Positions 1-43,518 of a DNA stretch of 64,000 nucleotides are shown one piece after another (the first letter of the stretch is position 1; each line of letters begins with the position of its first letter). The notes below the pieces were generated by a model, which saw only the letters and a list, made by a program, of their open reading frames with translations, was not told where the DNA came from and searched no databases. The stretch lies in assembly GCA_037043015.1 (NCBI GenBank), contig CM073324.1, forward strand, positions 24,010,097-24,074,096. Reading direction: 5' to 3'. Made by a program: the position numbers and the translations under genes. The stretch is from Bryum argenteum (taxonomy: Eukaryota; Streptophyta; Bryopsida; Bryales; Bryaceae).

Positions 1-3000
1 CGAGATACACAAAAATCCACACAGTCAGACTCTAGAAATGTTCTCATAAGTTGGTGGAACTAGTTTTGATTCGGGAGTTAGACTATAATTATAACATGAC
101 CATCGTGACATGTTCTTCCCATTCCTTTGTGACCGTATCTCTGATCGCTCAAAGAACTCTATCGTACTAGGAGTGTAGATAATCAAGATCATTTCCAAGA
201 GATACAAAAGTCGGACCAATCATCCTCACATTGTAAGTAATTCACTTCATAACTGAAATTACAGTCACAATAAGACACGAGTATAGTACTATTCTTCTAT
301 TTCTCGCAAGTGCTAATGGAGATTTCAGAATCAATCGATTTGATGGGCATGCAGCCCATGCAGCCCATCTTCAAACATCCTCGTGAGCTCATTGCACGAA
401 AATTTCACACAATCATACGTACTCAGCCTCGTGATGACTGAGTAACGTACAGATTAGTCACACACGGTCGTGTCTGAATGCAAAGAAACCGCTCTAATTT
501 CTATTTAACCATCTGAATGAAGAGTGAATGAGAAGCCAAACCTGGATATTAATACTCCACCGGTGATCATAGAGCTAGATCCTCTGGCTCAGGTCTTCAT
601 AGGATCGACCACCACTGTCTGGTTGATAATCCCCGTCGCTACAAGAATAGAGCAAAAGCTCTCTCTGCCAGAAGTCGGGGCTACAGAATGATCGAGACCT
701 TCTGTCAGTCGTATGACACAATTTCAGAAGCTACGAGTTCACAAAGAGTTGATCGATCATGCATTTGATGCTCCGGCATCCCTCTCACTGCAACTTATTT
801 CTACATGTATGATCATTCTGCAATTCTGTACGTATGCATCACACAACCTCAGCTCACTCATGGGCATGCTCGCTCGAGAATGATCTGCCAAGGCTGCTTA
901 ACTTCCCGAGTCCGAAACAGTCTGTGACACTCACTCACTCCAGGCTGAATTAGCGAAAGTTAACCCAAACAACGGAATGGTTCTGCAGCACAAGTACATG
1001 CTTGTAACCTACAATTGTCCGATCCCCTTTCAGTTGCATGCATCAACGTCTCAATACAATCAAACAATCATCACCCACAGAGTACTGGTCACATTCTCAT
1101 CTTGTCAAGTTCCACCTGAACCGTGACTTTTCAATGCATCATAACCTGGAACTTGGATATGAATTATCCAACCGGTGATCACTGAGATTGAACCTTAGTC
1201 CGGCACGTACGTCCACCAATATCGACCTTCAATCTGAGTGTCAACGTGTAACTAAATCGATCTCAGGAGCTAGCTACTCAGTCACGAAGTTAGAGTTGAT
1301 GGTTCAGCATCATTCTGCATCTGCATGCAGTGAGTGGCACTATTTGACCATGGATACATCTCGTACCATCACAACCTTCTTGCACCTCAAGCGATGTCCA
1401 CTTGTTCAACCGCGATGATTGTGAAGGTTCAACGCTTATCGCCCATCTCGCTCGTTCATGTGAAAGTCTTTCGGGTAAGAAACACATTCAACCAGCAGAT
1501 TAGATTAGCGTAACTATGGATTGAATAGAAATCATAAGTCTCCTGGGGGTACGTTGCTTTGAAAATCCATGCCACACTTCACAGCTCAGGACTGCTCACA
1601 AATCCCCTCCATCCTGCACGCGGCTTCTGGAACTCAACACCCTTTATCGTCCCTCCTGGACTTGTACCGATTCCCCTTCCGCACGCGCCTTCCTTTTCCA
1701 AGCAAATTGAAGTCATATCTTTGCCAGTCAAGGCACGGGATATCAAGTACTCGGTCTTGATTCGTCATTCATTGGTTGCGAGTCCACCTCATTCTTGAGA
1801 GTACTTGCAGCCACGTACAGTTACTTCCGAGCTCAGCCCGTCGAGATCGATCTAGCCTGGCAAGTACGAAAAATAGTGCGCCTGATTTGCACACAATCTG
1901 CATGATGAAGATTCTATTCGAGACGTAGCCGGCCTTGGGAGTGAGGCCTTCACAGACAAGGAGAAGCCGCGACAATAAGAGCTCCTATTCGATATAATCT
2001 GTGAACTCAAGAGCTTCCTCGAACAGAACGTAACAAGTTTCGCTTCGGTAGCATCAGACTTCCGCAACTTAATCGCACGCAGCCACGCATTGGTGAAAGG
2101 GCATCTCCATGCAATCATGTCAACCCTGGATGCACTAATTGCCCCGCCGTATCATTCTCATGAATTGCCTGTCATTCTGATGCTTGGATCTTAAACTAGG
2201 GTTTCCATGCAGTCCTGGGCTCACGTAAAAGCTTCACCTCTGTCATCATCGAGCGAACCTCATTAATAGTGGACTAAAGAGTGCGTGCGAATGCGTGCGG
2301 AGTTGGTGACTATGCACTGCTCGCAATTGAACGGAATTGAATCGGATCCAATCACAGTGGCAACCTGCACAATTCCCCTCGAAACCCTACGAGAGGTGGT
2401 CCCGCCTTGTTTAACCAGCCGAGTGACTGAGCCTCGACAAGCGACGATGACATAGCTAACAAATTGATGCTCACATTCAAGCACTCGTGAATGCATATTA
2501 AACGTTGTTAGTACGACTTTTCTCGCTCGTGAGTGTTCGATTGTAAGTCTACATCATGCTAGTCTCTTAGTCCCGCAAGCGATCCTTGTAATCGAGCCAC
2601 ACTGCGTTCCTGCACTCCTCATAATCTAAAGCATCAAAGGGCTCCCCCGCCCCTTACCAAAGAAACCTTCACCTCATCATCACATGCATATCGGATTTGA
2701 GAATAAAAGCGTGAAGAGGTCCTGCTTCATGATTGCTCCCAAGGAATCGCGATTGAGTTGAATTTCATGGACTCACGCAATCAGACCTCCCGAGTATCAC
2801 TCTCGTCGCGTGTCCTTCTGATGCTTGTATCTTAAGATCACGGGGTTTTCACACTGACAGGTCCATGCAAACAAAACCTTCACCGCATCGATCACTAAGC
2901 AAACTTAACAGTAGACTAATCATGCGATGCGCTTGAACGGAATTGATCGGCGAGACCTGGTGAATCCCGTCGAAAACCAAACCCTAAGTGGTCACGTAGG

Positions 3001-3588
3001 CCTTGAATGACCGGCCGAGTGAGTGGCAAGCGACAATGACAGACATGACGAAATGATACTACATAATAATCAAGCACTCATGAGTGGCTACTGCATTTGT
3101 GTACACATTACTTGGTCATTCCATTTCATGAGTGTACAAATTCGTATCCAGAGCGTGCTTAGTGATGCGAGTGATTATCATTAAGATGAGAGGAAGTGAC
3201 TCTCAGTCTGCAATAGTACTTTTTGTGTCTTGAAACGCACAGTCACCTCTCAAGCATCATACTTAGCCTGGCTCCCCTACAAACAATGAATCCCAGGCCC
3301 CAAAGAAGCCTTCCCGAAGTTCCTGAGGGGCCACATCATCATCATGCGTAATTATTTGGTTGAAACCTCCTAAAAGCGTGAATTCCATATCCTGCTTCAT
3401 TGATGCTCCCAAGTAATTGCGACTGAGTCGGATCCTGGCTCAAAATGGCATCCTCAGGCAATCTATTCTAAAACGCTAAGCCTTGGTAACGTCGCTCTTT
3501 CATTGAGACGTACAATGCATAATTCATTGATTCAGATCCTCTCTCTTGTCAGGAAATCATTATTAAGAACATACACTTCACGCTTCCT
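1..3588. other. Left part of the repeat unit, no gene recognised
   Basis: Non-AT-rich DNA present in all three units (also 17,406-20,995 and 34,583-38,190). It contains short open frames but none that I recognise. Two short stretches near 541-590 and 1,147-1,195 resemble each other (both contain an ACCGGTGATCA core after a TGGATAT start), which suggests an old internal duplication. The most protein-like segment is described separately at 18,977-19,270. Another plus-strand reading near 19,400-19,500 (ICELKSFLEQNV) also looks protein-like but has a stop just upstream. Confidence 0.5.
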
Positions 3589-4669
3589 CTATACGAGCCA
3601 GCCCTGGAATTTTGATCGTATTGTGATAAGCCTGTGTTTACATGCTTCTTCCATGTTTTGAGCTGTGGCAGCTTGCGACGTAAGTTCTGGACGTAAGCAT
3701 GATCGTATATACATAACAAAAGGCATTTGCGACGTAAGTTCTGGACAAATGAATTGAATTGCAGTTTCCCACAACCATTTCATTTTCACACCCTCCCAGA
3801 TGCCATGTATACATACTACATCAAAGCAAACAATTGTCCCAACTCCCCTCCAACAACGATCATTACATTCCATTCATCATTTACAGCCTAGTCCTGGCTA
3901 TGGCAGCACACGCAGTTTTATCAGGGGTGTGGGAGCTTGCATGAGAGAGGCATACGTCCATCCCGGGTGAATGTATCGGCTTGCATTGCATCACTTGGCC
4001 TGGCCTCTGCCTTACTGATTTGTATATAACTTATTGATTTGTAGATAAGCTCAATTTCGGCAGTCGTCACAACCAGTGTCCATACAGAAGGACAGGAGGA
4101 GCCATGGCCTTGTGGAGACACCACAAGCACCTCGCTCTTTGTTCGATTCATGTCTTTCATCAATTCATGCCGTGTATGGACTGAGTTACTAGCCTGGCTG
4201 CCTAACTTAAACCTTCAATGCTCTTTCAAGCGCTTTCAGCCTGCAAGCGATGGAGCAGAATCTTTCGTTCTTCAGCTTCATTGAGCATGCATGCAAGCGG
4301 AGATATTCGGGAACCATCCTCCATTCCTTCTGTTTCCATTCGTCGGGGATCCTCTATTTACGCAGCGTTCATCCGTCTACCGAGCAACAGCAGCCCATAC
4401 CGCCGAAGTCCTCACTTCCTTCCCTCACTCGGAAATCAGGAAATCAAGTTTGCCGAAGGTGTTTCTGAACGACTGGAGATGCTCAGCGTTGATGAGGGCA
4501 CCTCCGCGCACAGTGAGCGTCATGACGATGCGAACGAGTAGTAATTACGCGATCATTCTGCTCAAACAGGATTGGATACCATGAGTTCTCCAACACGGAA
4601 GTGTAACTATGTTCCTGCTCCGGGGTTTGATGTCGTTCAAACAGGTTGACCTCTGAACCCAAGTAACGA
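3589..4669. other. Region downstream of the helicase fragment, no gene recognised
   Basis: Present in all units (also about 20,996-22,071 and 38,190-39,243). A 20-bp motif around GACGTAAGTTCTGGAC occurs twice, 56 bp apart (about 3,675 and 3,728). Overlapping short open frames occur on both strands, but none continues consistently between copies or resembles a family I know. It may contain the 3' untranslated region of the helicase gene from which the fragment came. Confidence 0.5.
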
Positions 4670-5960
<1,291 letters not shown>

Positions 5961-6348
5961 CTGTAACCATGAATAACACATGTTACTCAATTACTAAGCA
6001 GATTTCAGCTATGGAGCACCTTAAGAAGAACTGGAACTCATCTCCTGACTGCAATGGCACTTTCTACTGCATGGTGAACGGAAGCGAGTTTCCGCAGACT
6101 TGCAGCCTGAACAATTAGCTATGATGAGGAGGCTGGTCAGTGGAACGAAACAGAAGATTGGACCCGAACTCCCGAAGTAGCGTATTCACAACAACCTCCC
6201 TGGGCTCTGGCACTCACTATTACCTTGATTCTTTACTCAATTCCATACGCAAGGAGAAGAACCAGAACTAGGCCTTACCTGACGTCCTTCTGGCTCGAAA
6301 GTCTGGTGGCAGTGGCCTTGCTGATCATATGGTTATGGTGATGACCAG
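5961..6348. other. Gap between the head-to-head helicase and RBOH fragments
   Basis: The helicase fragment (minus) and the RBOH fragment (plus) point away from each other across this segment of about 390 bp. An open frame on the plus strand (to 6,118) overlaps the helicase exon and is not supported by any family. Upstream exons of either gene are not seen here, so the junction between the two captured genes probably lies in this interval. Equivalent intervals are 23,368-23,756 and 40,546-40,938. Confidence 0.45.
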
Positions 6349-6870
6349 AAGAAATCGGGGAAGAGAGTTGAGGAGCGTTTCCAATCACTCGCGGAGCTTG
6401 ATGGCATGCTATCTCGCTCTAACTTCGCCGAATGCATCGGTACGTGCTCGCTCTATCACTTCTCCATCAACCGATCCGACTTCAGTGACTAACCAGCGTG
6501 GTGCTCGCTGCCTGCATGGATGAAAGACTCGAAAGAGTTCAGAATGGAGCTGTACGACGCGGCCGTGCGCAGGAAAGGTCGTGAGCACGCCACCAGCATC
6601 ACCAAGGAAGAGTTGTACGAGTATTGGCTACTGACAACAGGGAGCGGCTTCGACGCGAAGATGCGGCTACTCTTCGATTTGAGCGACAAGGATTCAGACG
6701 GGCGGATCACAAGTAAAGAGGTGAAGCAAGTGATCATGTTGAGCGCGAGCGCGAACAAGCTCTCCAAGCTAAAAGAACCGGCGTCAGAATACGCAACGCT
6801 CATCATGGAAGAGCTCGACACTGAGGTGAACGAGCTAAGTCAGTTGGAAACGCCGAGATCCGTGCCGATG
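6349..6870 (+). pseudogene. RBOH (NADPH oxidase) EF-hand region fragment, unit 0
   Basis: A plus-strand fragment of a respiratory burst oxidase gene. Exon 6,349-6,439 encodes KRVEERFQSLAELDG and SNFAECIG and ends at a GTACGT donor. The next exon, from about 6,496 or 6,520, encodes KDSKEFRMELYDAAVRRKG, SITKEELYEYW, the EF-hand loop DKDSDGRITSKE, and LSASANKLSKLKEPASEYA followed by IMEELDTE and SQLET. This order matches the cytosolic regulatory part of plant RBOH proteins, where Ca2+ binding activates superoxide production. After SQLET the frame leaves the family and becomes acidic and Arg/Gly-rich. No transmembrane, FAD or NADPH domain follows before the AT-rich spacer. The usual GCAG acceptor before the second exon is not seen (TGCATGG here); an upstream CCAG keeps frame in this copy. 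Confidence 0.85.
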
Positions 6871-7112
6871 TCGCTGCTTCCGTGCATTCTCTCCTGGACC
6901 TCTGATCAAAATCATTGGAGCCGCCAACGAAGGCCCCGAGGAAGACGAAGGCCCCGAGGAAGACGAAGGCGCCGAGGAAATGGATGCTCTGGATCACTGC
7001 GCTCTAGGTCCTCGCCATGGCCATATTTCCACCTTGACCTACAAACATCGAAAAATCGTCAAAACTCACAGCAGTACTACCGAGGTAAGCGTTGTAACTT
7101 CAAAGAAGATTA

Positions 7113-7559
7113 GAAGCGACCTCTACTACCAGCCGCAAGTCGAGTTTTGCAAACGCTTGACCACATTCTCAAGCGATACAAAGTCGGGACTTGAAGGTGA
7201 CGAACTTCGGCGTAAGGGTCATTTTTTTTCACGCACTTCTCTCGCAAGACGCCGGGATTGCAAACAGGAGCCGGCTCAAGTTTGGCGGACAAGGGTCTGA
7301 GTATGTGATCGCATGAGACTTCCAAATGAAGTCACGAAGCAGCTCAAGTTAGAGAGAATGGGCCCACCATTCGATTGGGGAGCGACCTTTCAGCGTGAAT
7401 ACCAAACACTCACCGCTTTGTCGCAACCTTCGGCTCTCGGCTTCCACAGATCCCGAACCTGTCTCCCATAGGTTTCGGGACAAACCTACCCATGGTACCT
7501 ACCTAAATTCAAAAGAACTTCCCGCCCACATGTGACCTTCCCGAGTTCCCGCCATTTCA
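7113..7559. other. Tail of the gene-fragment region, unit 0
   Basis: Between the RBOH fragment and the AT-rich spacer; equivalents at 24,529-24,969 and 41,679-42,149. No oxidase sequence continues here. The copies differ by many small indels, then become almost identical once the AT-rich spacer starts near 7,600, so the change in divergence is abrupt. No gene recognised. Confidence 0.45.
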
Positions 7560-8925
7560 GCCGTCAAAGCGATATTGTAATTAGTACAATATACTAATTA
7601 ATCCATGCATCACTAAAATGACGGTCACAAATATTCTCTTGAAAAGCGTAATGTAATAATCAATTGAGCCATTTGTTTAAAGTACATTGTAAATCACTTA
7701 TTCTCAAATTTGGAATACTATGAACATTGCTTTACTATTGTTTGACTTTCATCAAATGTATTAGTAGGTTTATCAACCCTAAGCATACCTTGCCCCTTTG
7801 TTTTTGAAGGTCAAAAGTGAACAATCTACAATTCCAAACATGATGTAGTTCCGCATAAACTTACCAAAGGCTCATAAAATAAGAAGTTTATTCTAAAGTG
7901 CTTGGTACCACTCACAATTTGTAATCAACCTCAACATGGTTAATTGGGCTTTTAGAGCTATTTATGGGTAAAATTTTGTGACAAACTTACCAAAGTCACA
8001 TAAAAAGTATATTCTACAATTCTTGGTACCACTCACAATTTGTAATGATCCATAAAATGGTTGATTGGGCTTTTAGAGCTATTTAACAAAGTACTCTCTC
8101 ATTTCTTTAAATGGTGGATGTGGAAGATTCAAATAGGTTAAGTTTTTGGATACATGTTTTTTTTTTCAAAATACATGTGGAGTATCAATAGTACTAGAAA
8201 GTGTTAGTACTAATTTCTATTGATTTCCAAAGTTTTAGTCTCGTTGATTCATTACAAAATAATAGTTGAACATGTTACTATTTTAAGTGATTCAACAATA
8301 TTATTCAATTTAAGCATCAAGGCCTTCATATTTTCTTTAAAAAAACTTCATGATAGTTATGGAATGCGCATGTATTTTCTAACACATCCAAGTTTTCCTC
8401 GGATTCCCTTGAGCATGTAGGTGGGTTAAATTGCCCTAAATCCTCAATATTCAAAATTCCAAATTGGGTATAAAAAAATAAGAAATAAAACCTGGGGGGG
8501 GGGTAAGAGTTAAGCTTCAAGAATACATAAATTAAACCTCTCTATTTCTCACATAGGAAATGACACATTTAGAACGATCAAAAGAAAGATTCAACACAAA
8601 TGAACAAAAGTATTTTCTGGATGTTTAAGAATAGGAGAATGCCTTATTTCAATATAAACTGTTGCAATTTCGTCGGAATCTGCCCCTCTGGATGACATTA
8701 TCATATCCACAGCAATACAACCAAATATAATTAATATGGACAAATACAAGAAAAAAATAAAATTAAAAAGATATAAAAAAATCACAAGTACTTCTTTGGC
8801 ATTAGTCCTGAAAAGGAGTTTTTGTGCAAATTTGATAGAAATGCATTGCTTTTATGACATTTATTCTATTTAAAGTATGTTCAAATTTTACAAATTCAAC
8901 AACCCAATCATTGTAATGTGCAATA
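7560..8925. other. AT-rich spacer before the minisatellite, unit 0
   Basis: AT-rich non-coding DNA, almost identical in units 1 (24,970-26,342) and 2 (42,150-43,518). It contains a direct duplication of period about 126 bp at 7,859-8,085 (each half has GGTACCACTCACAATTTGTA and then a TTGGGCTTTTAGAGCTATTTA stretch) and a run of about ten G near 8,493. No gene recognised. The sharp drop in copy-to-copy differences here, compared with the gene-fragment part, is notable. Confidence 0.6.
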
Positions 8926-11595
8926 CTTCAAAATTTTCTAGATCCCTTCAAAGTTTTGTAGATCCCTTCAAAGTTTTGTACATCCCTTCAAAGTTTTGTA
9001 GATCCCTTAAAAGTTTTGTAGATTCCTCCAAAGTTTTGTAGATCCCTTCAAATTTTTGTAGATCCCTTCAAATTTTTGTAGATCCCTTCAAAGTTTTGTA
9101 GATCTCTTCAAAGTTTTGTAGATCCCTTCAAAGTTTTGTGGATCCCTTCAAAGTTTTGTAGATTCCTCAAAAGTTTTGTACATCCCTTCAAAGTTTTGTA
9201 CATCCCTTCAAAGTTTTGTAGATCCCTTCAAAGTTTTGTAGATTCCTCCAAAGTTTTGTAGATCCCTTCAAAGTTTTGTACATCCCTTCAAAGTTTTGTA
9301 GATCCCTTAAAAGTTTTGTAGATTCCTCCAAAGTTTTGTAGATCCCTTCAAATTTTTGTAGATCCCTTCAAAGTTTTGTAGATCTCTTCAAATTTTTCTA
9401 GATCCCTTCAAAGTTTTGTAGATCCCTTTAAAGTTTTGTAGATCCCTCCAAAGTTTTGTAGATCCCTTCAAAGTTTTGTACATCCCTTCAAAGTTTTGTA
9501 GATCCCTTAAAAGTTTTGTAGATTCCTACAAAGTTTTGTAGATCCCTTCAAATTTTTGTAGATCCCTTCAAAGTTTTGTAGATCTCTTCAAAGTTTCGTA
9601 GATCCCTTCAAATTTTTGTAGATCCCTTCAAAGTTTTGTAGATCTCTTCAAATTTTTGTAGATCCCTCCAAAGTTTTGTAGATCTCTTCAAATTTTTGTA
9701 GATCCCTTCAAAGTTTTGTAGATCCCTTCAAAGTTTAGTAAATCCCTTCAAAGTTTTGTAGATCCCTTCAAAGTTTTGTAGATCCCTTCAAAGTTTTGTT
9801 CATCCCTTCAAAGTTTTGTAGATCCCTTCAAAGTTTTGTAGATCCCTTAAAAGTATTGTAGATCCCTTCAAATTTTTGTAGATCCCTTCAAAGTTTTGTA
9901 CATCCCTTCAAAGTTTTGTAGATCCCTCCAAAGTTTTGTAGATCCCTTCAAAGTTTTGTAGATCTCTTCAAATTTTTGTGGATCCCTCCAAAGTATTGTA
10001 GATCCCTTCAAAGTTTTGTAGATCCCTTCAAAGTTTTGTAAATCCCTTCAAAGTTTTGTAGATCCCTTCAAAGTTTTGTACATCCCTTCAAAGTTTTGTA
10101 GATCCCTTCAAAGTTTTGTAGATACCTTCAAAGTTTTGTACATGGATCCCTTCAAAGTTTTGTAGATCCCTTCAAAGTTTTGTAAATCCCTTCAAAGTTT
10201 TGTAGATCCCTTCAAAGTTTTGTAGATCTCTTCAAATTTTTGTAGATCCCTCCAAAGTTTTGTAGATCCCTTCAAAGTTTTGTAAATCCCTTCAAAGTTT
10301 TGTAGATCCCTTCAAAGTTTTGTAAATCCCTTCAAAGTTTTGTACATCCCTTCAAAGTTTTGTAGATCTCTTCAAATTTTGTAGATCCCTCAAAGTTTTG
10401 TAGATCCTTCAAAGTTTTGTAGATCCCTTCAAAGTTTTGTAAATCCCTTCAAAGTTTTGTAGATCCCTTCAAAGTTTTGTACATCCCTTCAAAGTTTTGT
10501 AGATACCTTCAAAGTTTTGTACATGGATCCCTTCAAAGTTTTGTAGATCCCTTCAAAGTTTTGTAGATCCCTTCAAAGTTTTGTTCATGGATCCCTTCAA
10601 AGTTTTGTACATGGATCCCTTCAAAGTTTTGTAGATCCCTTCAAAGTTTTGTAAATCCCTTCAAAGTTTTGTAGATCCCTTCAAAGTTTTGTAGATCTCT
10701 TCAAATTTTTGTAGATCCCTCCAAAGTATTGTAGATCCCTTCAAAGTTTTGTAGATCCCTTCAAAGTTTTGTAAATCCCTTCAAAGTTTTGTAGATCCCT
10801 TCAAAGTTTTGTACATCCCTTCAAAGTTTTGTACATCCCTTCAAAGTTTTGTGGATCCCTCCAAAGTATTGTAGATCCCTTCAAAGTTTTGTAGATCCCT
10901 TCAAAGTTTTGTAAATCCCTTCAAAGTTTTGTAGATCCCTTCAAAGTTTTGTAGATCTCTTCAAATTTTTGTAGATCCCTCCAAAGTATTGTAGATCCCT
11001 TCAAAGTTTTGTAGATCCCTTCAAAGTTTTGTAAATCCCTTCAAAGTTTTGTAGATCCCTTCAAAGTTTTGTACATCCCTTCAAAGTTTTGTAGATACCT
11101 TCAAAGTTTTGTACATGGATCCCTTCAAAGTTTTGTAGATCCCTTCAAAGTTTTGTAGATCCCTTCAAAGTTTTGTTCATGGATCCCTTCAAAGTTTTGT
11201 ACATGGATCCCTTCAAAGTTTTGTAGATCCCTTCAAAGTTTTGTAGATCCCTTCAAAGTTTTGTAGATCTCTCCAAAGTTTTCTAGATCCCTTCAAAGTT
11301 TTGTACATGGATCCCTTCAAAGTTTTGTACATGGATCCCTTCAAAGTTTTGTAGATCCCTTCAAAGTTTTGTAAATCCCTTCAAAGTTTTGTAGATCCCT
11401 TCAAAGTTTTGTAGATCCCTTCAAAGTTTTGTAGATCCCTTCAAAGTTTTGTAGATCCCTTCAAAGTTTTGTAGATCCCTTCAAAGTTTTGTAGATCCCT
11501 TCAAAGTTTTGTAGATCCCTTCAAAGTCTTGTGGTACCTTCAAAGTTTTGTGATCATACGTTCAAAGTTTTGTAATCATACCTTCAAAGTTTTGT
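8926..11595. repeat. 20-bp minisatellite array, unit 0 (about 133 repeats)
   Basis: Tandem array of gatcccttcaaagttttgta with point variants (acatccc, gattcctcc, gatctcttcaaatttt, gtggatccc) and 24-bp forms that insert CATG (gtacatggatccc). The last three units decay through GGTACC, GATCATACG and AATCATACC forms. Because 20 is not a multiple of three, frames through it give a 20-residue periodic peptide in all frames; I treat it as non-coding. The repeat contains GATC, so it would be cut throughout by Sau3A-type enzymes. Confidence 0.97.
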
Positions 11596-12376
11596 TATAG
11601 GTTGTGAGCAATCTTGCATGAGGTTAGCATAAAGTTTAGATATACCTCAAAAAGATAAACCCATAAAGTCAAAATTGATGGGAATGGACCAAAAAAGATA
11701 TGTTGCTTTTGCAAAATTGCAATTTTGAGTGAATATGACTCAAGATCCGTATGATCAAATTTTATCAAAATGGGAGGATAGACTAATCACATAGCTATAA
11801 ACAACAAAAGAACATGATCTTGCATATTTGGTAATGAGACGAAGGATTATTGTTGTTGGATTCGAACAAGTTGTACAAAAATGTAATAAACTAAGGTGCT
11901 ATTCTTTGGCATCAATCCTTTACAAAATTTAGCTCTAAAAACCCCCACATCATGAATTTCAAGTGAACCCAATTTAGGTGAGACAATAGTACTTACAAAT
12001 AGGTCATTCACATAGATGCCGTCATTAAGGATGAGAACATTTACTTCCTTCTTCATTCACATACATTTACATTATTTTGCCTCAAAATTTGCCACAACAT
12101 TAAATTACAACATCACACCTCTAACACACTTCAAAATACTCACCATGAAACAATTGAAGATATATTCTTCATCATAATATGCTTAATAATTGATTGAAAG
12201 AACTGCACAATTCTAGAATTTTGTTAGCATATTTGAAAATGTCGGAGACTTTACTACGTAAGCGATTGTAAGGTTAACAATTTTTTTCATATCTACAAAG
12301 TACATGTTAAATGCTAAAAAAAACCAAGAAAAAGAGAAAATTGGTCAATCAATCACATGGAAGGAGAGAGCAAAGT
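11596..12376. other. AT-rich segment between minisatellite and COP1 3' end, unit 0
   Basis: Almost identical to 28,766-29,546 and 45,268-46,048. The part next to the COP1 stop codon would be the 3' untranslated region. A 69-codon minus-strand frame (12,056-11,847) is kept in all copies with one residue change, but all the surrounding non-coding DNA is equally conserved, so this is no evidence of coding. No family recognised. Confidence 0.55.
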
Positions 12377-15910: not shown

Positions 15911-16703
15911 TAAAAAATCATGATATCGTGTCGTGATCTCAGAATTTGGGAATTATTCAATTCATGGATTTCATGAAATTCGCTGAAAATGACCACAATC
16001 ATTTTACTTTACAATTGACCGATTGTGTAACTTTTGCTAATATCATAATAATTTTGCGTAATTTTTTGAAAGCAATAAATTTTGACACTCAATTATGTTT
16101 TTATCTTATTTCATTACCATGATAGCCCATTGCAGGGGATTTCGGAACTCTCCACCGTGGGCATGATCAATATTCCTTAAGTCTCTTAAGATTCATTGAT
16201 TCAGAAAAAAATCACAAAAAAGAAAAAGTAAAAGGAAAGAAAAGTCCAGAGCTTACTTGTGATGGTTGTGAGAGTCCATGCCAAATGTGCAGCAGCACCT
16301 CCAACGCCCACGTCATAGAATGGCGAGGACCCTGCTTTTTAACAAAGAATGTGACTCATAAACAAATAAAAAGTTATTCAGGTCTACACCAACTCAAGCC
16401 TATGTCAAGCTTTATCGAGATGTGTCCAAAATCCACACAATGTGACTCTAATTATGCGAATCAGAGAGTCAAGAGACACAGAAGTCAATTATTTTCAGTT
16501 ATGAGTAATGAAACCACTAGTTATTTATCACAATTTGTCGAGAAAGAACTCCTTTTCTAAAAATCGACCAATTTATTGTCTTTTCTCCTCGGAAACCATT
16601 CATTTCAAAATCTCAGAACAATGATTAAAACATGGGTTTAATACTTTTCTTCAATTTTTTACACTAATGGAGTCAGATTTTAGAATCGATTGATTTGATG
16701 GGC

Positions 16704-16730
16704 ATGCAGCCCATGCAGCCCATGCAGCCC
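16704..16730. repeat. (ATGCAGCCC)3 short tandem repeat
   Basis: Three perfect 9-bp units, also three in the equivalent place in unit 2 (about 33,881). The related half of the 1-kb duplication has two units (about 349, 17,752, 34,930). It is a useful marker that the two halves share descent. Confidence 0.85.
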
Positions 16731-22071: not shown

Positions 22072-23367
<1,296 letters not shown>

Positions 23368-28765: not shown

Positions 28766-29546
28766 TATAGGTTGTGAGCAATCTTGCATGAGGTTAGCAT
28801 AAAGTTTAGATATACCTCAAAAAGATAAACCCATAAAGTCAAAATTGATGGGAATGGACCAAAAAAGATATGTTGCTTTTGCAAAATTGCAATTTTGAGT
28901 GAATATGACTCAAGATCCGTATGATCAAATTTTATCAAAATGGGAGGATAGACTAATCACATAGCTATAAACAACAAAAGAACATGATCTTGCATATTTG
29001 GTAATGAGACGAAGGATTATTGTTGTTGGATTCGAACAAGTTGTACAAAAATGTAATAAACTAAGGTGCTATTCTTTGGCATCAATCCTTTACAAAATTT
29101 AGCTCTAAAAACCCCCACCTCATGAATTTCAAGTGAACCCAATTTAGGTGAGACAATAGTACTTACAAATAGGTCATTCACATAGATGCCGTCATTAAGG
29201 ATGAGAACATTTACTTCCTTCTTCATTCACATACATTTACATTATTTTGCCTCAAAATTTGCCACAACATTAAATTACAACATCACACCTCTAACACACT
29301 TCAAAATACTCACCATGAAACAATTGAAGATATATTCTTCATCATAATATGCTTAATAATTGATTGAAAGAACTGCACAATTCTAGAATTTTGTTAGCAT
29401 ATTTGAAAATGTCGGAGACTTTACTACGTAAGCGATTGTAAGGTTAACAATTTTTTTCATATCTACAAAGTACATGTTAAATGCTAAAAAAAACCAAGAA
29501 AAAGAGAAAATTGGTCAATCAATCACATGGAAGGAGAGAGCAAAGT

Positions 29547-31466
29547 TCAAGGAGCCAGAACAAGAACTTTAATGGTTCCTTGCGAGTTAGCGGCTATCAT
29601 GGTGGGGCTCTCACTCTTCCAACACACTGCACTAATAAAATGGGAGCTAGCATCATCATCACTGTCTTCCGGGTTTTCAGACCCAAATCTATAACATGCT
29701 GCTGGTCTTGACATTGCCTGCCAATCACACAATCCAACATTCAGATCCGGGAACAAGCCATTGTTGCTACAATGTTGAAAAAGAGAACAAAGCGATGTTG
29801 AAAGAGACTGAGCATTTGGGTGCCACTGAAAAGAAATGAATGCGAAAATGCATACCTTATGATAAACAACGACTTCATTTCTTTCACTGCCGCATGCGAT
29901 ATACTCACTGTTGACACTCAGTCCTACGAAGTTCTTCTCATTTGTGTGTCCTCTGAGTGTTCGTATCTGTAGTCAATGCATACTTATTAGTGGTGGGATC
30001 TCTTGGAAATTGCAATTAGCAAAGGAAGAGAAGATTTTCAGATGCAAGGCTCAGGTTACAAGAATGAAGGCGTACCGAGCAGTCTCTTTGCACATCCCAA
30101 AGCCGAAGTGTGCTGTCGGTAGATGCCGAGGCTAATTCAGTCGGTGAAATGAACTTCACGTATGATACTGCCTTCCGATGTCCCTTGAATGAGTACAGTG
30201 GCATGCTTGCATTCCGCAAATCGAAGTACTGGATGTGATGATCAGCTGAACCAACCTATCAACGAAGGAACAAATCATGCTCTTAATGATCTGAAAGAGT
30301 ATCCAAATAACACAGGAAACATGTTCAAGAGAGTATTATTTCGAATGCTGAAGTTTATGAACTCACTGCAATGTGGTGACTGGAACCAGGATTGTATTTC
30401 ACACAACAGATGTTGGCTCGCATGTCCAGGCTCAGTACGCTTGACTCTTGCCTTGTACACCACACCTTCACCTGCAAGAACCCCAAAACTTAAACGTCAG
30501 ATAACAGCACTTGATTATTGATTCCAATAGTAGGTTACTTACCAATACCGAAATCTATGATGCTATTTATAACGATGTACTGATGCAAGTGAGAAGTAAG
30601 TGTAAGTCGAAATTACTTGGCTATGTTCCATGCCATCTACGAATATTGCTTCAAATAAGTACCTTTCCATCGTCACTTCCAGACACTAGCATGGATGGCT
30701 CGGTTCGAGAAAAGTCCACACTCCAGGCTCGCTTCTCATGCTCCTCATATTCCATGATACTCTGTAATCAACAAGAAAAAGTGCAACCAATCTTAGCTGG
30801 TCATTCATAGAAGATGTTAAGTGATTGTAGAATTGGTGTAGGAACCAACATGTACCTGTCTTGTGTTGACATCCCAAACTGTAACTATGCCTTCATAGTC
30901 ACTGCTGGCAATGAGTGGCTTCGCACACTTATTCCAGCTCAAGCAGCTCAGTGGACCTCGTCGGTATTTCCGCCACTGGACAATGAACATCTGCTACCTC
31001 ATTTACAACCTGCTCCATTCGAGTCAATCAGTCAGATGAGAGATTTGAGGATAATATCAAGCTTGAATTCAAATGATAGCGGGGTAACGTACCGTTGCAA
31101 AATCAAAAACCTTGATCCGCCTTGATACACCCGCCGTTGCGAAGAATTCATCATCTCGATCAAATTCGATACTGCAAAGAAAAGAAGGAACTTGATACTT
31201 CAGAAAACTGCATTGGTAGATGATTTAAGGGTTTATGATCGGAATCTGTGAGGTTTTGTCTCTCACCTGGATACTATGTTCGAGCTGTTAAATAAGTCGC
31301 CTTGGTGAAGCTCAGCAACAACATCAAGACGACTGTAGCGAGTGAATGCTGTCAACACAGACTCAAAATCTTCTAACCCATCCTGGTAGCTCTCCGATCC
31401 TTTACATGCCTCATCTTGGGTGCCAGCTAATGGAACAGCTAAATCCCGGGCGGCATGATTGAACAT
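29547..31466 (-). pseudogene. COP1 WD40-half fragment with alternative 5' end, unit 1
   Basis: Second copy. Exons: 31,466-31,267, 31,171-31,093, 31,009-30,856, 30,761-30,663, 30,471-30,367, 30,255-30,076, 29,966-29,856, 29,717-29,547. The 17-residue alternative start is identical to unit 0. The sixth exon is normal here, but the seventh has lost two bases (CAGCTTGG reads CAGTGG near 30,950), shifting frame at the start of that blade. Thus units 0 and 1 are broken at different places by tiny indels. If both indels were sequence errors, both copies would be open from the alternative ATG to the stop. Confidence 0.88.
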
Positions 31467-34400
31467 TCATGAATGTTTGACATTATTTTCTCCCACCTGA
31501 TCAATGCCTCAATGTCGAGCATTTTTTCTTTTTCTTTTTCTTTTTTTTTTTGACATTTCTGCTTCGCAATGTCCACAGTGAGAAGATTCGTTGTGACTGA
31601 AATGTCCCGATTTTTCCCAAACATGAAAATGGACTTGTGTGCATGATCGGTGCAGGGACGAGAAGAAAGTGCGATGCAAAGCAATCTGTGTCGAGAAGGT
31701 GTCTCCGAGAAAAGTTTGAGATCTAGGAAATCTTGAAGAAAGTCGAGGCGAGAATTGCGGAATCCACGGATTTGGAGATTGCATGTAGGTGTGGAGGGGA
31801 TTGGGTGAGCGCAGAAGTGGGGTGAATGTCTGGAAGTGGAGACGTTGGAAAATACGGCATGCCTACGGCGTAGGCTGTTAGGTCACCTACCTGACTTGCC
31901 TGCCATGGCGACAGCCTGCCGGGGTGACAGTTCTAAGAACTTTTGTCTCTGACAATCGTCGTCAGTCAATCTCAAAATCGTGCATGCATGGAAATTTTTT
32001 TTGAGCGTCGTAGTATTCTGATCAAAGGCAAGGTACAAGCGTTTCCAAGATCATTTGGATCCAGGCTTCATCACAAACAATTCAACTACAAAAATCAAAG
32101 TCTTAGCATTCCTAAATCTGTCTCCCACTCTCAGCTAGCTACCTTTGTTGCTGTAGATCTAGCATGAGACACTCTTAGCTAGATGCCTTTGTTGTTGCCT
32201 TTGTTGTTGTAGATCTTGCACTCATGCTAGACTCCACTTCCGGCACTTCACGCTTACTTACGCATGGTCCTCCTTGAATGAGTTTCCGAGTACTCCTCAC
32301 ATCAAATAAACTCGATGAATGTTATCTGTTTCTTGAGATTCATAGAGATCGTTCATTGTAACAACCCTCCGAAGTTGATCAGAACTTGTGTCTAACAAAA
32401 AAGAATCATATTTACCGCTTATACTAAGTATTAATTAGCAATGATCAAAACCGCACCAATGTCACTCTTTAAATCTCATGCTATATCAACTCTTTTCAAG
32501 CCCTAGTATATACATACTAGGGTTTAATTTATAAGAAGGTAATCAACTTCAACCCAAAAATCAAAATGAACTTACTCCTCAATTTCTCACTAGCACGTAT
32601 GGTAGTCGAAAAAGTACTCATGTATTGTTATTGATCAACTCGGAGCTGAAAACTAAATTACTCTTGAGTGAGTCGCAACTCGCAAATAATAGGATATGAA
32701 GAGGAACCAATTAATTCTCATGAATCATATTTAAGGCATTAGTCAGTCTCTAAAAGTGCCGCAAATCAATTAAGCTTGATAAGCTATTAGGATCGCCCAT
32801 AATTCAGGTTTCTATGGCATGATCAAGTTCCAGTGAGCTTAAGATCATTGGAATTATAGCTCCAGTGAGGCTATTAAGATCATCAGTTCACTAATCAGTT
32901 GAGTTTTTCTCATTTATCACATCACTTTACAGTGAGAATTGATCATGATTCGTTTATTTGTAGAGATTCAGAGAAAACCAACAAAAATAACCCATACGGC
33001 ACTTTTATTCTGAAAATGATCAAATAAAAGTAGGATTTACTTTCTCTCAGACAACTCTAATCATGGTGGAGTTTGAAAAAAAATAAAAAATCATGATATC
33101 AGAAGTCAGGTATCTGTAACTTGGGAATTATTCAATTCATGGATTTCATGAAATTCGCTGAAAATGACCACAATCATTTTACTTTACAATTGACCGATTG
33201 TGTAACTTTTGCTAATATCATAATAATTTTGCGTAATTTTTTGAAAGCAATAAATTTTGACACTCAATTATGTTTTTATCTTATTTCATTACCATGATAG
33301 CCCATTGCAGGGGATTTCGGAACTCTCCACCGTGGGCATGATCAATATTCCTTAAGTCTCTTAAGATTCATTGATTCAGAAAAAAATCACAAAAAAGAAA
33401 AAGTAAAAGGAAAGAAAAGTCCAGAGCTTACTTGTGATGGTTGTGAGAGTCCATGCCAAATGTGCAGCAGCACCTCCAACGCCCACGTCATAGAATGGCG
33501 AGGACCCTGCTTTTTAACAAAGAATGTGACTCATAAACAAATAAAAAGTTATTCAGGTCTACACCAACTCAAGCCTATGTCAAGCTTTATCGAGATGTCC
33601 AAAAATCCACACAGTCAGGACTCTAATTATGTGAACTGTAGGAGTCAAGAGACACAGAAGTCAATTATTTTCAGTTATGAGTAATGAAACCACTAGTTAT
33701 TTATCACAATTTGTCGAGAAAGAACTCCTTTTCTAAAAATCGACCAATTTATTGTCTTTTCTCCTCGGAAACCATTCATTTCAAAATCTCAGAACAATGA
33801 TTAAAACATGGGTTTAATACTTTTCTTCAATTTTTTACACTAATGGAGTCAGATTTTAGAATCGATTGATTTGATGGGCATGCAGCCCATGCAGCCCATG
33901 CAGCCCATCTTCAGGGACACCCACGTAAGCTCATCATTTGCACGAACAATTCACACTGTAAGCATAGTTACAGACGGAGCATTAACGTGATGATTGAGTA
34001 AGCGTACAAATTAGTCAAGTTTCATAACACTCCCTATTCAACATACTTTGAAACAGTTTGAAAAACTCAAGAAACTCATGATCTGAGAAGTCAGAATGAT
34101 ATTTGTAATTTCGGAATTCCGGAATTCATGGATTTTCATATCATTCATAGAAAATTAATGACCACAATCATCCATTTTACTTCATAATTGACCAATGAAT
34201 TGCCTTCTGATAAGTACTATCATAATATTGACAGAGTAATTTAGTAATTTTATTACCATGTTAGCCCATTGCAGGAGATTCTGGAACTCTCCACGGGCAT
34301 GATCAATATTCCTTTTCTTGGAATTCATTAATTCAGAATAAACAAATAAATACATTAAAAATAAATAAAACATAACTTACAAAAAAATTATAAAAAAAAA

Positions 34401-36155
34401 AGTCCAGAGCTTACTTGTGATTGTTGTGAGAGTCCATGCCAAGTGTGCAGCTGCACCCCTCAACGCCCATGTCATAGAATGGCGCTCAAAGACCCCAGGG
34501 ATCTAAAACAAAGAATGTGAGTCACAAACAAATCAATGAAAGTTAAAATTTAACACCAAATCAAGCCTCTGTCAAGCTATATCGAGATACACAAAAATCC
34601 ACACAGTCAGACTCTAGAAATGTTCTCATAAGTTGGTGGAACTAGTTTTGATTCGGGAGTTAGACTATAATTATAACATGACCATCGTGACATGTTCTTC
34701 CCATTCCTTTGTGACCGTATCTCTGACTGCTCAGCAACTCTATCGTACTAGGAGTGTAGATAATCAAGATCATTTCCAAGAGATACAAAAGTCAGACCAA
34801 TCATCCTCACATTGTAAGTAATTCACTTCATAACTGAAATTACAGTCACAATAAGACACGAGTATAGTACTATTCTTCTATTTCTCGCAAGTGCTAATGG
34901 AGATTTCAGAATCAACTGATTTGATGGGCATGCAGCCCATGCAGCCCATCTTCAGAACATCCTCGTGAGCTCATTGCACGAAAATTTCACACAATCATAC
35001 GTACTCAGCCTCGTGATGACTGAGTAACGTACAGATTAGTCACACACGGTCGTGTCTGAATGCAAAGAAACCGCTCTAATTTCTATTTAACCATCTGAAT
35101 GAAGAGTGAATGAGAAGCCAAACCTGGATATTAATACTCCACCGGTGATCATAGAGCTAGATCCTCTGGCTCAGGTCTTCAGTAGGATCGACCACCACTG
35201 TCTGGTTGATAATCCCCGTCGCTACAAGAATAGAGCAAAAGCTCTCTCTGCCAGAAGTCGGGGCTACAGAATGATCGAGACCTTCTGTCAGTCGTATGAC
35301 ACAATTTCAGAAGCTACGAGTTCACAAAGAGTTGATCGATCATGCATTTGATGCTCCGGCATCCCTCTCACTACAACTTATTTCTACATGTATGATCATT
35401 CTGCAATTCTGTACGTATGCATCACACAACCTCAGCTCACTCATGGGCATGCTCGCTCGAGAATGATCCTTGCCAAGGCTGCTTAACTTCCCGAGTCCGA
35501 AACAGTCTGTGACACTCACTCACTCCAGGCTGAATTAGCGAAAGTTAACCCAAACAACGGAATGGTTCTGCAGCACAAGTACATGCTTGTAACCTACAAT
35601 TGTCCGATCCCCCTTTCAGTTGCATGCATCAACGTCTCAATACAATCAAACAATCATCACCCACAGAGTACTGGTCACATTCTCATCTTGTCAAGTTCCA
35701 CCTGAACCGTGACTTTTCAATGCATCATAACCTGGAACTTGGATATGAATTATCCAACCGGTGATCACTGAGATTGAACCTTAGTCTGGCACGTACGTCC
35801 ACCAATATCGACCTTCAATCTGAGTGTCAACGTGTAACTAAATCGATCTCAGGAGCTAGCTACTCAGTCACGAAGTTAGAGTTGATGGTTCAGCATCATT
35901 CTGCATCTGCATGCAGTGAGTGGCACTATTTGACCATGGATACATCTCGTACCATCACAACCTTCTTGCACCTCAAGCGATGTCCACTTGTTCAACCGCG
36001 ATGATTGTGAAGGTTCAACGCTTACTGGCCCATCTGCTCTCGTTCATGTGAAAGTCTTTCAGGTAAGAAACACATTCAACCAGCAGATTAGATTAGCGTA
36101 ACTATGGATTGAATAGAAATCATAAGTCTCCCTGGGGTACGTTGCTGAGAAATCC

Positions 36156-36450
36156 ATGCCACACTTCACAGCTCAGGACTGCTCACAAATCCCCTCCATC
36201 CTGCACGCGGCTTCTGTGGAACTCAACACCCTTTATCAGGTCCTCCTGGACTTGTACCGATTCCCCTTCCGGCACGCGCCTTCCTTTTCCAAGCAAATTG
36301 AAGTCATATCTTTGCCAGTCAAGGCACGGGATATCAAGTACTCGGTCTTCAGTTGCGTCATTCATTGGTTGCGAGTCCACCTCATTCTTGAGAGTACTTG
36401 CAGCCACGTACAGTTACTTCCGAGCTCAGCCCGTCGAGATCGATCTAGCC
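36156..36450 (+). pseudogene. Unrecognised exon-like segment, unit 2
   Basis: Second clear copy of the segment at 18,977. The reading frame is the same, with only minor differences near the 3' end, where unit 2 lacks a few bases before AAAATAGTGCGCC. The function is unknown. Its value is that the frame agrees between two copies whereas the unit 0 copy is broken at CTG/CAG sites. Confidence 0.33.
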
Positions 36451-39243
36451 TGGCAAGTGAAAAATAGTGCGCCTGATTTGCACACAATCTGCATGATGAA
36501 GATTCTATTCGAGACGTAGCCGGCCTTGGGAGTGAGGCCTTCACAGACAAGGAGAAGCCGCGACAATAAGAGCTCCTATTCGATATAATCTGTGAACTCA
36601 AGAGCTTCCTCGAACAGAACGTAACAAGTTTCGCTTCTGGTAGCATCAGACTTCCGCAACTTAACTGCACGCAGCCACGCATTGGTGAAAGGGCATCTCC
36701 ATGCAATCATGTCAACCCTGGATGCACTAATTGCCCCGCCGTATCATTCTCATGAATTGCCTGTCATTCTGATGCTTGGATCTTAAACTAGGGTTTCCAT
36801 GCAGGTCCTGGGCTCACGTAAAAGCTTCACCTCTGTCATCATCGAGCGAACCTCATTAATAGTGGACTAAAGAGTGCGTGCGAATGCGTGCGGAGTTGGT
36901 GACTATGCACTGCTCGCAATTGAACGGAATTGAATCGGATCCAATCACAGTGGCAACCTGCACAATTCCCCTCGAAACCCTACAGTAGGTGGTCCCGCCT
37001 TGTTTAACCAGCCGAGTGACTGAGCCTCGACAAGCGACGATGACATAGCTAACAAATTGATGCTCACATTCAAGCACTCGTGAATGCATATTAAACGTTG
37101 TTAGTACAGCTTTCTCGCTCGTGAGTGTTCGATTGTAAGTCTACATCATGCTAGTCTCTTAGTCCTGCAAGCGATCCTTGTAATCAGAGCCACACTGCGT
37201 TCCTGCACTCCTCATAATCTAAAGCATCAAAGGGCTCCCCCGCCCCTTACCAAAGAAACCTTCACCTCATCATCACATGCATATCGGATTTGAGAATAAA
37301 AGCGTGAAGAGGTCCTGCTTCATGATTGCTCCCAAGGAATCGCGATTGAGTTGAATTTCATGGACTCACGCAATCAGACCTCCCGAGTATCACTCTCGTC
37401 GCGTGTCCTTCTGATGCTTGTATCTTAAGATCACGGGGTTTTCACACTGACAGGTCCATGCAAACAAAACCTTCACCGCATCGATCACTAAGCAAACTTA
37501 ACAGTAGACTAATCATGCGATGCAGTTGAACGGAATTGATCGGCAGTAGACCTGGTGAATCCCCGTCGAAACCAAACCCTAAGTGGTCACGTAGGCCTTG
37601 AATGACCGGCCGAGTGAGTGGCAAGCGACAATGACAGACATGACGAAATGATACTCATTAATCAATCAAGCACTCATGAGTGGCTACGCATTTGAGTACG
37701 CATTACTTGGTCATTCCATTTCATGAGTGTACAAATTCGTATCCAGAGCGTCTTAGTGATGCGAGTGATTATCATTAAGATGAGAGGAAGTGACTCTCGA
37801 TGCCGCAATAGTACTTTTGTGTCTTGAAACGCATCGCCTCTCAAGCATCATACTTAGCCTGGCTCCCCTACAAACAATGAATCCTAGGCCCCAAAGAAGC
37901 CTTCCTGAAGTGCCACATCATCATCATGCGTAATTATTTGGTTGAAACCTCCTAAAAGCGTGAATTCCATATCCCGCTTCATTGATGCTCCCAAGTAATT
38001 GCGGTCGAGTCGGATCCTGGCTCAAAATGGCATCCTCAGGCAATCTATTCTAAAACGCTAAGCCTTGGTAACGTCGCTCTTTCATTGAGACGTACAATGC
38101 ATAATTCATTGATTCAGATCCTCTCTCTTGTCAGGAAATCATTATTAAGAACATACACTTCACGCTTCTCTATACGAGCCCACCGGAATTTTGATCGTAT
38201 TGTGATAAGCTGTGTTTACATGCTTCTTCCATGTTTTGAGTGTGGGCGACTTGACGTAAAGTTACGGACGTAAGCGTGATCGTATATACATAACAAAAGG
38301 CATTTGCGACGTAAGTTACGGACAAATGAATTGAATTGCGCTTTCCACAACCATTTCATTTTCACACCCTCCCAGATGCCATGTATACATACTACATCAA
38401 AGCAAACAATTGTCCCAACTCCCCTCCAACAACGATCATTACATTCCATTCATCATTTACTGACCTAAGTCGCGGCTGGCGGTAGCTTTTTATCGGTGTG
38501 TGGAGCTTGCATGAGAGAGGCATACGTCCATCCCGGGTGAATGTATCGGCTTGCATTGCATCACTTGGCCTGGCCTCTGCCTTACTGATTTGTATATAAC
38601 TTATTGATTTGTAGATAAGCTCAATTTCGGCAGTCGTCACAACCAGTGTCCATACAGAAGGACAGGAGGAGCCATGGCCTTGTGGAGACACCACAAGCAC
38701 CTCGCTCTTTGTTCGATTCATGTCTTTCATCAATTCATGCCGTGTATGGACTGAGTTACTAGCCTGGGCCGCCTAACTTAAACCTTCAATGCTCTTTCAA
38801 GCGCTTTCACCGCAAGCGATGGAGAGCGAGAATCTTTCGTTCTTCAGCTTCATTGAGCATGCATGCAAGCGGAGATATTCGGGAACCATCCTCCATTCCT
38901 TCTGTTTCCATTCGTCGGGGATCCTCTATTTACGCAGCGTTCATCCGTCTACCGAGCAACAACAGCCCATACCGCCGAAGTCCTCACTTCCTTCCCTCAC
39001 TCGGAAATCAGGAAATCAAGTTTGCCGAAGGTGTTTCTGAACGACTGGAGATGCTCGGCGTTGATGAGGGCACCTCCGCGCGCGCATGGCGCGTCGTGAC
39101 GATGCGAACGAGTAGTAATTACGCGATCATTCTGCTCAAACAGGATTGGATACCATGAGTTCTCCAACACGGAAGTGTAACTATGTTCCTGCTCCGGGGT
39201 TTGATGTCGTTCAAACAGGTTGACCTCTGAACCCAAGTAACGA

Positions 39244-40545
<1,302 letters not shown>

Positions 40546-40938
40546 CTGTAACCATGAATAACACATGTTACTCAATTACTAAGCAGATTTCAGCTATGGA
40601 GCACCTTAAGAAGAACTGGAACTCATCTCCTGACTGCAATGGCACTTTCTACTGCATGGTGAACGGAAGCGAGTTTCCGCAGACTTGCAGCCTGAACAAT
40701 TAGCTATGATGAGGAGGCTGGTCAGTGGAACGAAACAGAAGATTGGACCCGAACTCCCGAAGTAGCGTATTCACAACAACCTCCCTGGGCTCTGGCACTC
40801 ACTATTACCTTGATTCTTTACTCAATTCCATACGCAAGGAGAAGAACCTGAACTAGGCCTTACCCGACGTCGTCTTCCGGCTCGAAAGTCCAGTGGCGGC
40901 GTGGCCTTCTTTGATCATATGGTTATGGTGATGACCAG

Positions 40939-41450
40939 AAGAAATCGGGGAAGAGAGTTGAGGAGCGTTTCCAATCACTCGCGGAGCTTGATGGCATGCT
41001 ATCTCGCTCTAACTTCGCCGAATGCATCGGTACGTGCTCGCTCTATCACTTCTCCATCAACCGATCCGACTTCAGTGACTAACCAGCGTGGTGCTCGCTG
41101 CCTGCATGGATGAAAGACTCGAAAGAGTTCGAATGGAGCTGTACGACGCGGCCGTGCGCAGGAAAGGTCGTGAGCACGCCACCAGCATCACCAAGGAAGA
41201 GTTGTACGAGTATTGGCTACGACAACGAGAGGAGCGGCGGGACGCGAAGATGCGGCTACTCTTCGATTTGAGCGACAAGGATTCAGACGGGCGGATCACA
41301 AGTAAAGAGGTGAAGCAAGTGATCATGTTGAGCGCGAGCGCGAACAAGCTCTCCAAGCTAAAAGAACCGGCGTCAGAATACGCAACGCTCATCATGGAAG
41401 AGCTCGACACTGAGGTGAACGAGCTAAGTCAGTTGGAAACGCCGAGATCC
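40939..41450 (+). pseudogene. RBOH EF-hand region fragment, unit 2
   Basis: Third copy. The EF-hand loop DKDSDGRITSKE and SASANKLSKLKEP are intact. The segment just upstream is altered: units 0 and 1 read YWLLTTGSGFDAKMR, as expected for the family, while this copy reads YWLRQREERRDAKMR. At DNA level CTACTGACAACAGG has become CTACGACAACGAGAGG, and CTTCGACG has become GGGACG. Near 41,130 one base is lost (TTCAGAATGG reads TTCGAATGG). These changes sit on CTG/CAG sites and may be sequence errors. Confidence 0.82.
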
Positions 41451-43518
41451 GTGCCGATGTCGCTGCTTCCGTGCATTCTCTCCTGGACCTCTGATCAAAA
41501 TCATTGGAGCCGCCAACGAAGGCCCCGAGGAAGACGAAGGCCCCGAGGAAGACGAAGGCGCCGAGGAAATGGATGCTCTGGATCACTGCGCTCTAGGTCC
41601 TCGCCATGGCCATATTTCCACCTTGACCTACAAACATCGAAAAATCGTCAAAACTCACAAGAAGATACTACCGGGTAAGCGGCAGAATCTTCAAAGCGAC
41701 ATTAGAAGCGACCCTCGCTACCAGGTGGCAAGTCGAGTTTTGCAAACGCTTGACCACATTCTCAAGCGATACAAAGTCGGGACTTGAAGGTGACGAACTT
41801 CGGCGTAAGGGCCATTTCTTTCACGCACTTCTCTGCAAGACGCCGGGATTGCAAACAGAGCTCTCTCAAGTTTGGCGGACAAGGGTGAGTATGTGATCGC
41901 ATACGAGACTTCCAAATAAGTCACGGCGCGGCTCAAGTTAGAGAGAATGGGCCCAGCTGCTGATTGGGGAGCAGCCTTCAGCGTGAATACCAAACACTCA
42001 GCTGCTTTGTCGCAACCTTCGGCTCTCGGCTTCCACAGTCCCGAACCTGTCTCCCATAGGTTCGGGTACAAACCTACCCATGGTACCTACCTAAATTCAA
42101 AAAGAACTTCCCGCCCACATGTGACCTTCCCGAGTTCCCGCCATTTCAGCCGTCAAAGCGATATTGTAATTAGTACAATATACTAATTAATCCATGCATC
42201 ACTAAAATGACGGTCACAAATATTCTCTTGAAAAGCGTAATGTAATAATCAATTGAGCCATTTGTTTAAAGTACATTGTAAATCACTTATTCTCAAATTT
42301 GGAATACTATGAACATTGCTTTACTATTGTTTGACTTTCATCAAATGTATTAGTAGGTTTATCAACCCTAAGCATACCTTGCCCCTTTGTTTTTGAAGGC
42401 TGGTGTGAACAATCTACAATTCCAAACATGATGTAGTTCCAGACAAACTTACCAAAGGCTCATAAAATAAGAAGTTTATTCTAAAGTGCTTGGTACCACT
42501 CACAATTTGTAATCAACCTCAACATGGTTAATTGGGCTTTTAGAGCTATTTATGGGTAAAATTTTGTGACAAACTTACCAAAGTCACATAAAAAGTATAT
42601 TCTACAATTCTTGGTACCACTCACAATTTGTAATGATCCATAAAATGGTTGATTGGGCTTTTAGAGCTATTTAACAAAGTACTCTCTCATTTCTTTAAAT
42701 GGTGGATGTGGAAGATTCAAATAGGTTAAGTTTTTGGATACATGCTTTTTTTTTTCAAAATACATGTGGAGTATCAATAGTACTAGAAAGTGTTAGTACT
42801 AATTTCTATTGATTTCCAAAGTTTTAGTCTCGTTGATTCATTACAAAATAATAGTTGAACATGTTACTATTTTAAGTGATTCAACAATATTATTCAATTT
42901 AAGCATCAAGGCCTTCATATTTTCTTTAAAAAAAAACTTCATGATAGTTATGGAATGCGCATGTATTTTCTAACACATCCAAGTTTTCCTCGGATTCCCT
43001 TGAGCATGTAGGTGGGTTAAATTGCCCTAAATCCTCAATATTCAAAATTCCAAATTGGGTATAAAAAAATAAGAAATAAAACCTGGGGGGGGGTAAGAGT
43101 TAAGCTTCAAGAATACATAAATTAAACCTCTCTATTTCTGTTTACATAGGAAATGACACATTTAGAACGATCAAAAGAAAGATTCAACACAAATGAACAA
43201 AAGTATTTTCTGGATGTTTAAGAATAGGAGAATGCCTTATTTCAATATAAACTGTTGCAATTTCGTCGGAATCTGCCCCTCTGGATGACATTATCATATC
43301 CACAGCAATACAACCAAATATAATTAATATGGACAAATACAAGAAAAAAATAAAATTAAAAAGATATAAAAAAATCACAAGTACTTCTTTGGCATTAGTC
43401 CTGAAAAGGAGTTTTTGTGCAAATTTGATAGAAATGCATTGCTTTTATGACATTTATTCTATTTAAAGTATGTTCAAATTTTACAAATTCAACAACCCAA
43501 TCATTGTAATGTGCAATA

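Follow-up and report, generated by a model that had tools for sequence, protein, structure and literature searches.

The window analysed here, 64,000 nucleotides of Bryum argenteum DNA (C4:24010097-24074096 of an assembly of 258.8 Mb), carries a tandem array of three units of ~17.2 kb each, with an apparent identity of 96% between units. Most of the differences between these units are very probably uncorrected nanopore consensus errors at CHG-methylated CAG/CTG sites (CWG sites below), left in place where near-identical copies defeated polishing. In plants, CHG methylation occurs symmetrically at CWG and is a mark of silenced DNA. The use of a nanopore platform, the causal role of CHG methylation, the training of the basecaller and the part of polishing in producing the blocks in which the errors lie are inferred from the assembly sequence. 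An earlier note on this DNA had proposed that the differences were methylation-linked nanopore errors, and this is supported by a context count of the differences, its repetition at a second array on C9, the direction and spectrum of the changes, the sparing of gene domains and the accompanying homopolymer errors.

Each unit consists of a GC-richer 5' part with an RBOH-like fragment, a 20-bp satellite and then a COP1 WD40 domain on the minus strand; an AT-rich spacer is also present in units A and B. A partial copy of the unit, the counterpart of 12174-17405, lies directly upstream of the window. The units and their 5' parts are as follows.

1-17405: unit A
17406-34582: unit B
From 34583: unit C, the last unit, truncated
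1..8925, no strand: 5' part of unit A, with CAG/CTG-linked differences; A is mostly the odd copy up to ~3000
17406..26342, no strand: 5' part of unit B; B is odd mainly at unit positions ~4400-6000 and in part of 6500-7250
34583..43518, no strand: 5' part of unit C; C is odd mainly at unit positions ~3150-4250 and in part of 6260-6660

Copy differences at CAG and CTG sites in two arrays

The 5' part was compared over 8.9 kb of the three units, and the 20-bp satellite was left out of every count. An event was defined as one odd copy against two identical ones, and a CWG event as one overlapping a CAG or CTG of the agreeing copies. The 142 variant clusters in the 5' part comprised 116 scorable events and 26 ambiguous clusters, which were dropped. 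CWG sites were overlapped by 71 of the 116 scored events, against 18.5 ± 3.8 under random placement with a maximum of 30 in 1000 trials, so that the rule put forward in the earlier note, by which copy differences sit at CTG/CAG, is real and lies far beyond chance. A context count of the substitutions had been named in that note as the test that could refute it; this count was run and gave the strong CHG excess just described. All ten strings quoted there as examples were present in the sequence, and those quoted with a position lay at most 5 bases from it.

Expressed per site, the rate of variation was 13.4% at CAG/CTG (84/625), compared with 2.2% over all trinucleotides and 4.6% in the next class. 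The odd copy had lost a CWG in 60 events and gained one in 13, and its CG content went up in 53 events and down in 15. The 45 events that were not CWG events by the agreeing copies consisted of 13 homopolymer-length changes, 12 events with a CWG in the odd copy and 20 others; CWG-linked and homopolymer events together made up 96 of the 116. When units A and B alone were compared, CWG sites varied at 100/285 sites of unit positions 1-8000. In the stretch near 7.0-7.5 kb, 23/25 CWG sites varied. In this stretch, 7 of the 9 CWG sites of the homologue on C11 (81% identity) were altered identically in all three copies, 4 of them to CG-type states, which means either that no copy is correct there or that the C11 homologue is genuinely different.

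The CWG signature recurred at a second tandem array, and therefore is not special to the window:

C9:3549987-3611309: tandem array of ~16.5-kb units in 3 to 4 copies, with part of a Vps62-like gene

Comparison of the C9 array with the window gave no match of at least 80 bases at E 1e-20, and the sole similarity seen was 70 bases at 84%. CWG events made up 57 of 101 scored events in the 4-copy half (expected 8.7 ± 2.7), where 74 ambiguous clusters were set aside. In the 3-copy half, with 6 such clusters set aside, they made up 44 of 87 (expected 12.4 ± 3.3). The first 600 columns of the 3-copy half are a minisatellite, which was removed in later counts; without it CWG events numbered 44 of 64 (expected 9.4 ± 2.7). 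Homopolymer-length changes accounted for 26 of the 64 non-CWG events in C9.

Outcome and direction of the changes

Among the pooled CWG events (n = 172), 92 were multi-base changes or indels with a gain of CG, 25 were A>G or T>C, and 2 were single C>T or G>A changes; 86 of the 172 shifted the length out of frame. In CAG orientation, the 133 simple cases became CGG (25), CGA (12), CG (11) or CGT (5), never CCG, with many rarer or complex outcomes besides. The earlier note had described CTG as becoming TCG, CG or CCG and CAG as becoming CGA or CG; the gain of CG in most events agrees with this description, but deletions and complex changes go beyond the quoted ones, and CWG-to-CG is the main outcome rather than the sole one. 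Deamination in the CHG context, from C to T, would act in the same sequence context with a different outcome. It does not account for the changes and was rejected as a candidate because only 2 of the 172 events were single C>T or G>A changes.

The original state of each site was read from homologues used as outgroups, in a tally that omits events whose two forms both contain a CWG or both lack it. The homologue on C5, which is the closest single-copy one (92.5%), had the same state as the CWG form in each of the 13 one-sided events, and it differed from the array at 1 of 15 sites with a CWG in all three copies. The more distant outgroups on C6, C11 and C8, taken together, gave 10 events for CWG as the original state, 2 against and 21 without a call, and the C9b outgroup, which overlaps the C6 events, gave 4 for, 0 against and 4 without a call. 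True homologues differ in another way: at the 52 sites with a CWG in C6 and a different state common to the three copies, that state was most often TTG (9) or CAA (5).

These tallies bear on the alternative that the differences are real, having arisen by a CWG-directed mutational process and having been gathered into blocks by gene conversion. Blocks with one odd copy at a time, which are described below, would be expected if gene conversion had linked the other two copies, and gene conversion could indeed yield blocks, but it could yield neither the direction nor the spectrum. Real divergence should give two-way changes free of any motif, whereas the changes observed here are in excess at a motif, run one way against C5 (reversed in 2 of 10 resolved cases for the distant C6), include multi-base swaps that recur at two arrays and contain almost no C>T at CWG. 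They are also unlike the changes of true homologues and are found together with homopolymer differences in the same copies. We therefore consider real divergence scarcely credible.

Spared domains and blocks of odd copies

Variation at CWG sites was not uniform along the arrays. The stretches of the window compared in this respect were as follows.

11596..14600, minus strand: COP1 WD40 exon domain of unit A, spared; the similarity of the last unit stops at 14238
28766..31770, minus strand: COP1 domain of unit B, spared, with COP1 matches at 29550-29972 and 30654-30761
45268..47920, minus strand: COP1 domain of unit C (truncated)
15000..16500, no strand: spacer stretch of unit A, not spared

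CWG sites in the COP1 domain, counted over the 3 kb at the start of the 3' part, varied between A and B at 1 of 74 sites, against an expectation of 26.4 with matched 5-mer context and a minimum of 12 in 20000 simulations. An alignment of four copies over 2075 columns of this domain (65 CWG sites in copy A; 5 ambiguous clusters dropped) contained 5 scored events and 0 CWG events. At the C9 array, a 3-kb stretch with the Vps62 exon match was variable at 0 of 87 CWG sites, compared with 57/170 elsewhere in the 3-copy half and 200/252 in the 4-copy half. This stretch is not just better polished, because homopolymer events were equally dense there (4 in 2901 columns, against 7 in 5511 elsewhere). 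The AT-rich spacer at 15.0-16.5 kb behaved otherwise, with CWG variation at 16 of 39 sites between A and B. When unit positions 14239-17405 were aligned with the upstream copy included (10 ambiguous clusters dropped), 24 of 36 events were CWG events, and the odd one was nearly always the upstream copy. The earlier statement that COP1 exons and AT-rich spacers are nearly free of such changes thus stands for the COP1 domain and falls for the spacer.

The excess at CWG and the homopolymer differences suit nanopore sequencing in general, and would also be seen if the basecalling model were simply weak at CAG/CTG, independently of methylation. This is improbable, since such a weakness should also have shown, within these arrays, in the COP1 stretch (flanking context matched) and in the Vps62 stretch, where CWG sites were spared while homopolymer errors were still present in the latter. 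Plain weakness at CAG and real divergence with gene conversion were both considered and were rejected on the spared domains, the direction and the spectrum. The direction against C5, the spectrum other than C>T, the homopolymer errors and the sparing of gene domains that are present in as many copies as the affected segments all fit methylation-linked nanopore errors.

Within the arrays, events with the same odd copy were grouped. Neighbouring CWG events shared their odd copy in 50 of 70 cases in the window array, against 22.8 ± 3.9 after shuffling, and in 41/56 (18.4 ± 3.3) and 32/43 (13.6 ± 3.1) cases in C9. A homopolymer event and the CWG event closest to it had the same odd copy in 21 of 37 cases, against 13.9 ± 2.5 after shuffling. 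Such blocks are consistent with correcting reads having been drawn to copies that already matched them.

The pattern could have arisen as follows. The assembly was most likely built from native-DNA nanopore reads, called with a basecaller that would have learned 5-methylcytosine (5mC) mainly before G. A caller that expects G after methylated C may write CG for CAG, and a methylated CWG would then be misread as C followed by G, with CAG becoming CGG, CGA or CG and CTG becoming CCG, TCG or CG, in addition to more complex errors. Polishing would have cleared such errors from unique sequence; among near-identical copies, the correcting reads would have been taken up by the copy that they fitted from the start, so that errors would have persisted as runs, each confined to a single copy. 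The COP1 WD40 and C9 Vps62 stretches would be without CHG methylation and hence without these errors.

The changes themselves reveal only that a motif was misread in some domains, and a base modification at CWG other than 5mC could produce the same picture. Such a modification is highly unlikely: CWG is a symmetric CHG site of plant 5mC, and errors of this sort have been attributed in the literature to 5mC in CCWGG (PMC6591954). In Klebsiella pneumoniae, Dcm CCWGG motifs accounted for ~70% of the consensus errors of the then-current default Oxford Nanopore Technologies basecallers, and homopolymers came second (Wick et al. 2019, PMC6591954). As far as the cited passages of that study go, the likeness extends to 5mC in a C-W-G setting, to the motif as the largest error class and to homopolymer length as the second; the present case differs in that any CWG is affected without CCWGG being singled out, and in that the errors lie in certain domains of multi-copy sequence in a plant genome. 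Methylation has also been proposed as the cause of poor nanopore accuracy in plants (PMC9749173; review PMC7501810), and the passages concerned share with our reading the proposed cause, namely models untrained on plant methylation; the term CHG is absent from the main text of the former, and the cited passages of the review describe no CWG-to-CG pattern. A literature search for a report of CHG-specific nanopore errors found none by titles, abstract beginnings or passages, which is no proof of the phenomenon being unpublished. The pattern falls within a recognised type of artefact, and it is the setting that is new.

Several observations weigh against methylation-linked errors as the explanation. 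In the COP1 domain of C4, variable columns outside CWG were also about four-fold fewer (7/2368 vs 72/5737), and part of the COP1 contrast may stem from something other than CWG. Among the 172 CWG events, 49 were multi-base changes or indels that brought no new CG, and CG was lost in 2. The C6 outgroup (78%) gave 2 reversed one-sided cases, against 8 in favour and 17 without a call. The evolutionary C>T footprint that past CHG methylation would leave did not stand out clearly when CWG was compared with CHH: the values were 0.097/0.073 for C6, 0.067/0.068 for C9b and 0.010/0.008 for C5. A sparing of CCWGG, which would be a possible mark of a Dcm-trained basecaller, was not seen (13/94 vs 182/1090, p 0.56). 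Finally, the ambiguous clusters (26 on C4, 74 and 6 on C9) stand outside the counts.

If the differences are errors of this kind, the apparent identity of 96% underrates the likeness of the units, and the differences inform on sequencing and silencing rather than on true mutation or gene decay. Since half of the CWG events are out of frame, neither the annotation of genes and pseudogenes nor the dating of divergence could be relied on in such repeats. The affected sites hint at where CHG methylation is located, and the check by paralogues is simple and applicable to other nanopore-based plant assemblies. We judge the chances evenly balanced that residual CWG errors are a shadow of CHG methylation from which an assembly alone maps the silenced and unsilenced domains of an array, and that published nanopore plant assemblies carry such maps.

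Composition of the array and further observations

The remaining features of the window are given below.

8926..11595, plus strand: 20-bp satellite of unit A, ~132 copies
26343..28765, plus strand: 20-bp satellite of unit B, ~122 copies
43519..45267, plus strand: 20-bp satellite of unit C, ~86 copies
23680..24525, plus strand: RBOH-like fragment of unit B (PF08414 and EF-hand), inside an affected segment
48914-49552, minus strand: COP1 RING exon, beyond the last unit and upstream, on the minus strand, of its COP1 domain

The copy number of the 20-bp satellite thus varies by unit. Matches to 5S ribosomal RNA, of which 46 were listed, are single and far apart on C1 to C11, which would be unusual for a plant; scoring covered only 47 of the 8049 candidates from a first look, which leaves room for a tandem array.

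The best relatives of solved structure for the WD40 exons of the units were COP1 chains. By gene content, RBOH and COP1 point to a plant as the source of the DNA. COP1 is represented in the units by its WD40 part only, and the last unit continues towards the RING exon (window 45268-49552); the array may have expanded from a COP1 gene, starting with its 3' half.

For the RBOH-like fragment the best solved relative was 3a8r, and the longest stop-to-stop frame there measured 282 (unit B), 206 (unit A) and 199 (unit C) amino acids. The 5' part (1-8925 and its copies) is mosaic-like, with pieces matching C5 at 92.5%, an RBOH-like locus on C8 at 88%, C11 at 81% and C6 at 78%, as if a mobile element had gathered gene fragments.

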